In this document: positions 12,560-15,560 of the stretch, in pieces
How the letters are laid out: each line of letters starts with the position of its first letter
How positions within the stretch are numbered: position 1 is the first letter of the stretch
Assembly (NCBI GenBank): GCA_016928395.1
Contig: JAFGKV010000276.1
Location: forward strand, 1-42,712
Direction of reading: 5' to 3'
Origin: Candidatus Fermentibacterota bacterium
Lineage (GTDB): Bacteria > JAFGKV01
DNA: 42,712 nucleotides
Position numbers and translations under genes: made by a program
The notes under the pieces: generated by a model
What the model was told of the DNA's origin: nothing
The model's database searches: none
The model's input: only the letters and a program-made list of their open reading frames with translations

Positions 12560-13878
12560 GACACGTTCCTCCCTACGGCCGCGATGGCCGGTTCGATCTC
12601 GTCATAGTCGTGGGCATGGAAGTACAGGGGGCATGCCCCCTGGCACAGGGCAAACTCAGGGCACGGCCTGCACAAGGGATGTGCTTCGCGTTTCTCCCTG
12701 ATGTGCCGGGTTCGGGGGCCGAACCAAATGCGGCTGAACCCATCCTCGAGAATGCTGCCCAAAGGTTCGGGCCAACTGGAACACGGCAAGACCTGCCCGG
12801 AGGGATCGATGGAGAGCAGCCCTTCGCAGGCTGCGCAACTCTTATTGCCCAGCCCCTGCTGGACAGGGTTGAACAGGCAGACGGGAATCGGGGAGTACCA
12901 CATGAAGTGAATGCTCTCCGACCGCGCCGCTGCCACGATCTCTGGCAGGAGGGCTGCGGCCTCGCGATAGGTGGTTGCTAGCTCGGGGTCGATCCCCCTT
13001 CCGGCGGGGATCACCAGGTTTGCCGAGCATCGCGTCGCCCCAAGGCTGCGGGCAAAGGCAGGAAGCAGGGTCGCGGTGTCCAGGTTCATGGCGCACAGTG
13101 TCGTATGCGGATGGACATGCACGCCGGCCTCCTGGAGGGCATGAAGCCCGGCCACCGATGCGGCGTGAGCCCCGCCTTGCCCCACGATCCGGTCATGGAT
13201 CGCCGGTTCCGGCGACTCGATGCTCACCTGGGCCGATGCAAGCCCGCGTTTCTTCAACGTTGCAGCCACGGCTCTATCGATGAGGGTTCCATTGGTGATG
13301 AGGTTGACTCGCATGTCAAGGGAGCGGGCATAGGCCACCAGGTCAGGGAGATCCGGCCGAAGCATGGGTTCTCCGCCGGTGAATGAGACGCTGGGAACCT
13401 CGGCATCCTGCCGGATGATGCGGAGGACATCCTTGACGGTCTTTGTATCCATCTCGGCTTTTGGGGCCGGTTCGCTCACGTGACGGCATGCCGCATAGCA
13501 GAATTGGCATCGGAGATTGCATCGGAAGGTCAGGGAAATCTCCGAGAGGATGGGCAACTCAATGTAACCCAGTGCAAAGGGTGACCGCCGAATGGCCGGC
13601 GACCAGTGTTCGTCGGACAACTCATCGCTCAAGACCCGGGACAGGTCAGTGAAAAACACCGCCAGGTCGCGAGAGACATTCCCGTCACCGTCGTGACGGA
13701 TGATGTCGGCGATACTCCCGCCGGCGAGGAGATGGTGAAGGGTGCGGGCACCCGTTCTGTTCAGCCTGAACGCCTGATTGGGCATGCGGATGAGCACATT
13801 GTCAGTCAGGCGAACGTGGACATAGGGCCGGATAGAATCTATGAATCCGTCGACCCACTCCAGGGCCGCAGTCTCCAT
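12556..13878 (-). CDS. Radical SAM/SPASM enzyme with fused N-terminal PqqD-like domain
   Basis: A 440-residue peptide-modifying radical SAM candidate. Residues about 20-90 look like a PqqD-type RiPP recognition element (VLIRMPNQAFRLNRTGARTL, then a short helix pair ending FFTDLSRVL). The radical SAM core carries the [4Fe-4S] motif C-x3-C-x2-C at Cys120, Cys124 and Cys127, then SFTGGEP for SAM binding. The C-terminal SPASM domain has two auxiliary-cluster cysteine sets: Cys348, Cys351 and Cys366, then Cys403, Cys406, Cys412 and Cys416. The start at 13878 overlaps the stop of the CHSA-repeat gene (TGATG), so the two are made together; a longer frame to 13938 would run into the repeat gene. The substrate is inferred to be the adjacent CHSA tail. 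Expected chemistry for this class is a radical-based crosslink or epimerisation, but the product is unknown. Confidence 0.93.
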   Translation of the reverse strand: METAALEWVDGFIDSIRPYVHVRLTDNVLIRMPNQAFRLNRTGARTLHHLLAGGSIADIIRHDGDGNVSRDLAVFFTDLSRVLSDELSDEHWSPAIRRSPFALGYIELPILSEISLTFRCNLRCQFCYAACRHVSEPAPKAEMDTKTVKDVLRIIRQDAEVPSVSFTGGEPMLRPDLPDLVAYARSLDMRVNLITNGTLIDRAVAATLKKRGLASAQVSIESPEPAIHDRIVGQGGAHAASVAGLHALQEAGVHVHPHTTLCAMNLDTATLLPAFARSLGATRCSANLVIPAGRGIDPELATTYREAAALLPEIVAAARSESIHFMWYSPIPVCLFNPVQQGLGNKSCAACEGLLSIDPSGQVLPCSSWPEPLGSILEDGFSRIWFGPRTRHIREKREAHPLCRPCPEFALCQGACPLYFHAHDYDEIEPAIAAVGRNVS

Positions 13879-15560
13879 CAATGGCCTCCACCGCTTACGC
13901 AGGCGGAGTGACACGCCGAATGGCAGGCGGAGTGGCACGCGGAGTGACAGGCGGAGTGGCAGGCCGAATGGCAGGCGTCATGGCAGGCGGCATGGCATGC
14001 CTGGATACCGCCCAGATCCCGGGCTACCTGCGCGAAGGAGATGGCATCCGGATTCACAGGAAGAGATGCCTCGAACTCATAGTCGTGCCGGGCAGGGTCG
14101 AAACGATCCCCCTGATGTGCCGATGCGTGATACCAGTACCACCAACTCCGTTCGGGATGACTGTCGTACACCGGGCCGTCATCGACCATGGTCTGTTCCT
14201 GGCTCGTGGGCCGGCCTGCGTCGCGCATGGTACGGCCAATCTTGTCGCCATAGAAACGCTTGGTGGCCTCGATGTCGCAATCCCACGCCTTTTCCTGCAC
14301 GGTGCGCACCATCTTCTGCAGGAGCTCCTCCAGTTCGGCGGTGCTGAACTGCCCATCGTCCTTGGCGGCCTGAAGCAACGTGTATTCGTGGGGGCCAAGG
14401 CTGCTGAGTGATTCCGGGGCGGGGCGGGCGACCTCGACGATCAGCGGATCGCGACTGATGACGGTGATGAAGCCCCGGGCCGCCAGGTGCGAGAGCATGG
14501 TGGAGAGGATCTGCTTGTAGGGTACGCCGAGAAACAGCGCCGCCTCGACGGGGTCGAGGGTGTCGGCCACCTTCCCAGGCTTGCGGAACGACGCAAGCTC
14601 GATCACGGGAGGTTCCCAGTCTTCCCGTACCCATCGGACGTCGTCCAGTTGCTCATGCGCCTTGCCAAGAGACCGGTGCTTGCCCCTCACTACGAAGGCG
14701 CCAAACCCAAGTAGTGCCACCATGGCAACCGCAAGAACCTGCCTGGCGCGGCGGGGGTCAGACACCGCGGCAGTGGAGGATGAGCTCTCGTCAGTCTCCA
14801 GAGCGGTTCGAGGCACAGATGCTTCCCGATCCCGAAGCCCCGGGAAGACCTCCGCGTGCACATACTGCTGGATCCTGAAGTCATAGCGGGAAGAAGGCCG
14901 ATTCTTGTGCAGCAGCACCTGGATCCGTTGCTCGTCTTGGACGGCGACCACCCGGTAGTCAATGAGATACTCCTTGTTCATCCATGACTCGGTCGCAAAT
15001 CCCCGGTCAAGCAACGCGCGCTCTACGGCGGCGCGGGAACCGTCTGCATCGGCGTAGGGGATAGGGTAGGTCACGCGTACGGTGTAGTGATCCATGGATT
15101 CGTCCCACTGGGTGGGCGACCAATGAAGCACCACAAGGTCGTGGCCATCATCCGTGGTGGTGGGCGCGAGGTAGCCCGCGATGGCCATGTCGGCAGCGAA
15201 GCGGAATCGGTAGGTGACCTCGCCTGAGGAGACGCCCTGGTCTCCCGCAAGGATGATATCCCACTGGCCGGATCTATAGGGTGTGATGTCAAGGCCATAT
15301 GTTCGCCCCTGGCTGTCAATGGCCGATGCGTGCTCGGTGTCGAATACCGGTTGCAGGAGACCCACGCCGCCGAAGTAGAATCCATGGAACTCGCCGGAAC
15401 GAACCTCGTAGCGCACCACATATTCGAGGACAGCCTGACCATCGGGGAAGAGGGTTACGTCGGTCTCCACGAAGCGCAATGATCCGGTGCCCGCCGAGGC
15501 GGGACCGGTCAGCCAACAGACGACGGCAAGGGTGAGAGCGAGCCGGTGTCGATGGGTCAT
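13878..15560 (-). CDS. Membrane protein with cytoplasmic Cys-His-Ser-Ala repeat tail (DUF2207-like)
   Basis: A 560-residue protein. A signal peptide (about 1-23) precedes an extracytoplasmic beta-rich domain (about 25-250, including LEYVVRYEV and [18 protein letters not shown]), which fits the DUF2207 pattern. A Ser-rich linker and one membrane helix (about 274-292) follow. The cytoplasmic part has a winged-helix-like segment ([26 protein letters not shown]), also DUF2207-like. The last 39 residues are eight C-H-x-A units (one CHAA, one CHDA, six CHSA) and then CVSGGGH, giving nine Cys at every fourth residue from 522. Ribosome site AGGAGT is eight bases before the ATG. The radical SAM gene starts on its stop codon. 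I infer that the tail is the modified substrate. Metal or cluster binding by the unmodified Cys/His array is an alternative. Confidence 0.88.
   Translation of the reverse strand: [560 protein letters not shown]
13902..13997 (-). repeat. Eight in-frame 12-bp tandem repeats (CHxA codons)
   Basis: Ninety-six bases made of eight 12-bp units, consensus TGCCACTCCGCC on the minus strand. Variation is mostly silent (TGC/TGT, CAC/CAT, TCC/TCG, GCC/GCG), while Cys-His and the final Ala are invariant. The two units farthest from the C-terminus encode CHAA and CHDA. The synonymous differences show that the repeat is not a fresh expansion and that its protein sequence is maintained by selection. Confidence 0.9.

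Follow-up and report, generated by a model that had tools for sequence, protein, structure and literature searches.

A candidate protein-modification cassette pairing a radical SAM enzyme with a membrane protein that carries a repeated Cys tail

The window analysed here is the whole 42,712-nucleotide contig JAFGKV010000276.1 of a Candidatus Fermentibacterota bacterium (assembly GCA_016928395.1). On its (-) strand it encodes a 560-residue membrane protein ending in a repeat of four-residue C-H-x-A units, followed by a radical S-adenosylmethionine (SAM) enzyme and a further membrane protein. From the sequence patterns described below we propose, with a probability of about three in four, that the three genes form a protein-modification cassette in which a dedicated radical SAM enzyme would modify a Cys tail kept on the membrane protein. 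That the tail belongs with this enzyme is strongly supported by gene adjacency, by a common phylogenetic profile and by a sister enzyme that tracks a different Cys tail. From these patterns we infer the modification of the tail, its chemistry, the retention of the tail and its function in the cell.

The three coupled genes

The proposed substrate (13878..15560) begins with a signal peptide (residues 1-23, ASA/GTG; 15492..15560), which coincides with a hydropathy peak at residues 6-24 and a modelled helix at 2-17. It is followed by an outer, DUF2207-like beta domain (residues 25-235, 14856..15488), in which PF09972 matches residues 31-229 with 30.8 bits, above its gathering threshold of 24.4; the model is also matched by 11 of 37 members of the tail-protein family at E <= 0.01. 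The family-average hydropathy shows, besides the signal peak, a single strong membrane peak (2.38) at residues 274-292 (14685..14741), after which comes the positively charged, predicted inner segment RGKHRS. The cytoplasmic domain (residues 315-448, 14217..14618) carries a KAWDCDxEATK motif and resembles TIGR04222, which matches residues 325-424 with 31.6 bits, under its curated cut-off of 43, and 7 of the 37 family members at E <= 0.01; a smaller hydropathy rise at 338-356 falls within this folded domain. The tail itself (residues 522-560, 13881..13997) reads CHAA CHDA (CHSA)6 C VSGGGH, in which eight C-H-x-A units and one more Cys, nine Cys in all at four-residue spacing, precede VSGGGH.

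The structure model (mean predicted local distance difference test, pLDDT, 81.5) comprises the signal helix, the beta domain at 25-235, a long helix at 269-305 and a helical cytoplasmic domain with a winged-helix-like start. When it was used as a Foldseek query, the best matches were M1 aminopeptidases over ~230 columns, with a TM-score of ~0.26 over the whole query; we set a peptidase identity aside and took these matches to reflect a beta fold common to the outer domain. In the family, the density of Lys plus Arg per residue rises from 0.11 before the membrane helix to 0.24 after it. Because there is one strong helix, a signal peptide and a Lys/Arg-rich flank after the helix, the tail is placed inside, and the sequence and the model fit a type I membrane protein with a cytoplasmic Cys tail.

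The stop codon of the tail gene (TGA, 13880-13878) overlaps the ATG (13878-13876) of the radical SAM gene as TGATG. The latter (12556..13878, -) encodes a radical SAM/SPASM enzyme (PF04055, 88.1 bits; PF13186, 36.8 bits) with an N-terminal region that looks like a PqqD-type RiPP recognition element (RRE), RiPP standing for ribosomally synthesized and post-translationally modified peptide. PF13186 is matched by 40 of 41 family members. The CX3CX2C motif (C121, C125, C128) and seven Cys of the auxiliary region (335, 349, 367, 404, 407, 413 and 417) are invariant across the 41 sequences. The enzyme's stop in turn overlaps the ATG of gene 3 as ATGA (12559/12556). Gene 3 (11573..12559, -) is modelled as a four-helix membrane protein with a C-terminal alpha/beta domain (pLDDT 88.8); its product has no family in Pfam or NCBIfam, and Foldseek returned nothing for its model at E <= 0.001. 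Kinship with type III secretion chaperones was dropped, as the best VIA-align Z score, 7.5 over residues 175-326, is too weak to use. The two overlaps indicate that the genes for the tail protein, the enzyme and the membrane protein are coupled. Two other genomes of the same phylum carry the same gene set, gene 3 being cut by the contig end in one of them (G001).

A first-pass annotation, made from the sequence, had described the signal peptide, the DUF2207 domain, one membrane helix and the TGATG overlap, all of which agree with our results, as do its eight units and nine Cys at every fourth residue; its statement that the chain ends on the last Cys is corrected by the terminal VSGGGH. Its proposal of a membrane-anchored, cytoplasmic tail fits the topology described above and the lack of a conserved protease or exporter in the cassette.

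Conservation of the tail and its pairing with one enzyme clade

We compared the window protein with its relatives from the two other genomes of the phylum. Over its whole length the window protein shares 72% and 57-58% identity with them, and the tail is letter-identical in all three. Pairwise, 17, 24 and 28 of the 40 tail codons (stop included) differ, the first two values being those of the window tail against its relatives; all differences are synonymous, with 0 amino-acid changes. Codons also vary between the repeat units inside the window's own tail gene, which Tandem Repeats Finder (TRF) scores as a 12/24-bp tandem array at 13899-13997. Since the codons have diverged only synonymously and the peptide is unchanged, purifying selection, rather than DNA expansion, acts on the tail peptide.

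When the DNA of 84,980 species was scanned for four CHxA units, at least 113 stretches matched, and 80 loci were kept, mostly on contigs of metagenome-assembled genomes (MAGs). As the scan was not exhaustive and used the CHxA pattern only, all figures for distribution are minima, and tails of other types probably exist. Among the matches listed, true tails, at the end of a long open reading frame (ORF), occur on at least ~73 contigs, which represent some 35 groups at phylum or class level; L039 is one of them, confirmed from its C-terminal end. At least six matches are due to chance (L029, L031, L043, L061, L083, L084 and probably L035). The record titles name Spirochaetota, Planctomycetota, Aminicenantes, WOR-3, Myxococcales, Desulfobacterota groups, Gammaproteobacteria, Clostridia, Acidobacteria, Chloroflexi, Elusimicrobia, Omnitrophota, Gemmatimonadota, Armatimonadota, Verrucomicrobia and Lentisphaerae groups, Calditrichaceae, Bacteroidota, Nitrospiraceae, Sumerlaeota, Hydrogenedentota, Riflebacteria and others. 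Two archaeal MAG contigs, L051 (3.2 kb) and L056 (4.7 kb), also carry the tail, with binning error possible. The tail protein thus occurs in bacteria of dozens of phyla and probably in some archaea. No relative of the system was found in one scan of viral contigs or in plasmid records. The cassette is also present in a cultured isolate, Desulfobulbus alkaliphilus DSM 24258 (L033), which makes work in a native host possible.

The repeat was tallied over 597 units from 79 loci, one contig entering twice (L028 = G226). Among the matches listed, Cys at position 1 and Ala at position 4 are present in every unit, position 2 is His in 588 and another residue in 9, and position 3 is chiefly Ser (482) or Asp (70); 8-10 Cys are found in 75 of the 79 chains, and the chains usually end in CVSGG[ASG][HR]. 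A variant tail end, with close variants, is found at L016, L024, L045 and L054, the proteins of the first two being long (753 and 927 residues).

With a profile built from three radical SAM proteins, a gene of the same family was found next to the tail gene, on the same strand, at all but two of the loci whose flank was covered, the two genes mostly overlapping by 1-4 nt. Some loci need a closer reading: at L027 the N-terminus of the enzyme is visible and the remainder lies beyond the locus end; at L067 this N-terminus comes after gene 3, which we took as the order tail, gene 3, enzyme seen at L008; L071 ends within the tail; and at L056 the enzyme lies upstream. Three gene families, and only these, recur across most tail loci. 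No protease or transporter is conserved among the cassette loci, a genome-wide search for one not having been made. In six spirochaete loci (L030, L032, L041, L063, L068, L081) a gene family of ~218 residues recurs, the L032 copy lying directly upstream of the tail gene.

The pairing was also observed in a panel of 386 diverse genomes from 259 families. The tail pattern is present in nine genomes. The enzyme profile exceeds 480 bits in the same nine and in G387, whose gene is cut by a contig end; the next enzyme clade reaches at most 310 bits. Gene 3 is found in the same 10 genomes as the enzyme and in no others. The nine tail genomes fall in six families, and the chance of an identical set of six is, by arithmetic, ~1 in 4 x 10^11 if families are independent. 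In G248 the tail gene (C47:59641-59718) lies on a different contig from the enzyme and gene 3 (C1:163008-165317; L178, L179), all three being present; linkage alone therefore cannot explain the pairing. The G248 tail gene adjoins histidine-kinase-like genes.

The next enzyme clade tracks a different Cys tail. Its members (284-310 bits, covering profile positions 30-429, the N-terminal region included) occur in 8 of the 386 genomes, and a related DUF2207-like membrane protein ending in CACACAGCACACAGGGR is found in exactly these eight. Examples are L170, L172, L174 and L175 (G137, G324, G247 and G375), with four more genomes; the membrane protein near the sister enzymes ends in GGCACACACAGCACACAGGGR. 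In G274, G321, G128 and G265 the CACACAGCACA tail and the sister enzyme lie on different contigs. Comparisons within single genera gave the same picture: G247 has both the CA tail and the sister enzyme and G110 neither, and G324 has both and G192 neither. The cytoplasmic domain of the CA-tail protein is homologous to that of the CHxA protein (hhalign probability 98.9, E 2e-17). In a maximum-likelihood tree a split with 100/99 support sets the CHxA and CA enzymes jointly apart from other radical SAM enzymes. The CA enzymes form a single clade (100/100), which may branch within the CHxA group, but on a long branch. That the tail type follows the enzyme clade is what would be expected if the enzyme acts on the tail, and the best reading is that each of the two enzymes matures the Cys tail on its partner membrane protein, very probably so for the CHxA enzyme. 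The association of tail and enzyme suggested in the first-pass annotation, which proposed to look for a radical SAM neighbour beside other such tails, is borne out at nearly every locus. Since the CA tail has Cys and Ala without His or Ser, these two residues would be the common denominator of both systems.

A proposed modification and its alternatives

We suggest that the enzyme, translationally coupled to gene 1, would bind the tail protein and modify the tail Cys residues unit after unit. In this binding the RRE-like N-terminus of the enzyme would probably engage either the cytoplasmic domain or the terminal motif of the tail protein. The gene 3 product would be a membrane partner whose cytoplasmic domain may hold or present the tail, and the tail would most likely remain attached and cytoplasmic. 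Among the modifications that enzymes of this class make on Cys-repeat peptides, the thioether cross-link is the best known, and one might form here from Cys to the backbone or a side chain inside each four-residue unit. As the CHxA unit has no fixed Asp, the acceptor, if a thioether forms, must be another one; the fixed Ala beside each following Cys is a candidate. With such cross-links in place, the His/Cys ladder would be held as a metal or redox site. Because only three gene families recur and no protease or transporter is conserved with them, our favoured view, of moderate confidence, is that the tail is not released and serves in the cytoplasm as a metal or redox device, perhaps one linked to the DUF2207-like domain outside.

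Several observations weigh against this proposal. AlphaFold confidence is low for the Cys tail, and we therefore claim no structure for it. The peptide-recognition domain that the first-pass annotation ascribed to the enzyme is weak in the window's own copy, which has no Pfam PqqD match and aligns in register with the PqqD encoded at 18621-18941 only weakly (hhalign E 0.0055, probability 6.6); it fares better in the family, PF05402 matching 9 of 41 members (best 6.6e-11). Gene 3 was not detected in the variant subfamily of L016, L024 and L045. Finally, no enzyme adjoins the tail gene at L007 and L053, L007 having the substrate and gene 3 alone. Tails without a radical SAM partner, which the first-pass annotation had named as evidence against its idea, are thus found locally; both genomes carry the enzyme elsewhere, as do those of L056, L067 and L027 (430-600 bits, against at most 153 for their other radical SAM genes). 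L007 belongs to the same Myxococcales MAG as L013, where a second tail protein is followed by the enzyme and a diverged gene 3; as the L007 tail protein has no adjoining enzyme, one enzyme may serve both.

The alternative that survives best, though we consider it unlikely, makes the tail a small RiPP core that, once modified, would be cleaved off the membrane protein and released or exported. Maturases of this class normally take leader-core peptides, and the conserved terminal VSGGxH and the variable linker ahead of the tail could be handling signals. This would leave unexplained why the cassette has no recurring protease or transporter, why the tail belongs to a full-size membrane protein and faces the cytoplasm, and why it does not diversify, unlike secreted RiPP cores.

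Somewhat less probable still is an unmodified metal-binding ladder (Zn, Cu, Ni or Fe-S), with the radical SAM enzyme acting elsewhere or sensing the same condition. Cys-His at every fourth residue suits metals, and C, H and A are almost fixed. Yet the Ala at position 4 is as fixed as the Cys, which simple metal binding does not require; moreover, the tail pairs strictly with one enzyme clade genome-wide, unlinked cases included, and the CA tail, with which the sister enzyme is paired, has no His.

It is very improbable that another enzyme modifies the tail and that the radical SAM gene is a passenger. The obvious candidate would be a multinuclear non-haem iron-dependent oxidative enzyme (MNIO), as TIGR04222 proteins with Cys-rich ends have been proposed as substrates of such enzymes (PMC12452194). 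Yet the radical SAM gene itself tracks the tail, and a PF05114 search of 17 genomes with a CHxA or CA tail gave no match, positive controls having been detected, which rules out an MNIO as the tail modifier in these genomes. Slippage of low-complexity DNA with no selected role, to which the TRF score could point, or an assembly artefact is excluded by the codon differences between units, by the synonymous-only divergence between species, by recurrence across independent assemblies and by the 8-10 Cys and common terminal motif of 75 of 79 loci (among the matches listed).

The preferred reading, of a tail modified by its radical SAM partner, can be widened to a permanent, protein-borne Cys/His device, not a released peptide, its sequence fixed across dozens of bacterial phyla and some archaea and existing in at least two parallel versions (CHxA and CA), each with its own enzyme clade; to this we give an even chance. 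Most of what is known of radical SAM maturases concerns small peptide natural products with variable cores. In the present case a membrane protein is the presumed substrate, and its tail is near-invariant over mostly uncultured, often anaerobic lineages; such invariance over a very wide range of lineages suggests a basic cell function rather than chemical warfare.

Elsewhere in the window, a second radical SAM/SPASM gene (17485-18597, -), a PqqD-family gene (18618-18941, -; lasso-PqqD-like, below cut-off) and a rhomboid protease gene (16217-17158, -) form a group (16217-18941) that is kept in a same-genus genome (L004 5696-8408, -). A 1346-residue ORF at 5228-9268 (+) has, judged by its sequence, nucleotide-cyclase-like domains, an ATPase region and many TPR-like repeats.

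Relation to known systems

The conserved tail/enzyme system is not described in the curated family libraries or papers that we searched. No NCBIfam model covers any part of the cassette. In the open-licence literature we found nothing on DUF2207 with radical SAM enzymes and nothing relevant on CHSA tails; an earlier account may exist in a subscription journal or under a different name. The outer domain scores above gathering for DUF2207 (PF09972), a Pfam model that mentions neither a Cys tail nor an enzyme partner. Filing the parts under TIGR04222, TIGR04117, TIGR04115/TIGR04119, TIGR04340 or PapB was rejected, as the cut-offs are not reached.

The TIGR04222 (near_uncomplex) proteins share with the tail protein a membrane location, a related cytoplasmic domain (325-424), a Cys-rich C-terminus and a partner oxidative enzyme. 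They are linked to MNIO enzymes, some being proposed as their substrates, with tails proposed to be periplasmic (PMC12452194). In contrast, the tail protein described here remains below the cut-off, its one membrane helix would make the tail cytoplasmic, its repeat has a strict CHxA period instead of being Ser/Gly-rich, and its partner is a radical SAM enzyme, with no MNIO in the genomes tested. The NCBI link between DUF2207/TIGR04222-type proteins and radical SAM genes, mentioned in the first-pass annotation, was not confirmed: the score is 31.6 against a cut-off of 43, and the single pertinent paper on TIGR04222 (PMC12452194) points to MNIO, absent in the 17 genomes tested.

In the PapA/PapB ranthipeptide system (freyrasin), six CX3D motifs carry thioether bonds between Cys and Asp (PMC9413430). 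A radical SAM/SPASM enzyme and tandem Cys at four-residue spacing are common to both systems, whereas PapA is a small peptide with an Asp acceptor and the CHxA unit stands on a 560-residue membrane protein; our enzyme reaches 64.2 bits with the PapB model NF047865 (cut-off 340). With the CXXX-repeat models, the enzyme gave no match to TIGR04115 or TIGR04119 at E 0.001 (cut-offs 350 and 150), and the tail scored 12.4 bits in the window and 20.9 in L014 with TIGR04117 (cut-off 50). With the ACGX model TIGR04340 the enzyme gave 68.6 bits (cut-off 400). The substrate architecture differs from that of the ACGX and CXXX-repeat systems. What they share with the present one is a four-residue Cys repeat as presumed target of a radical SAM enzyme, and the CHxA unit can be read as ACHx too; in outline, the system would resemble the known pairs of four-residue Cys repeats and radical SAM enzymes.

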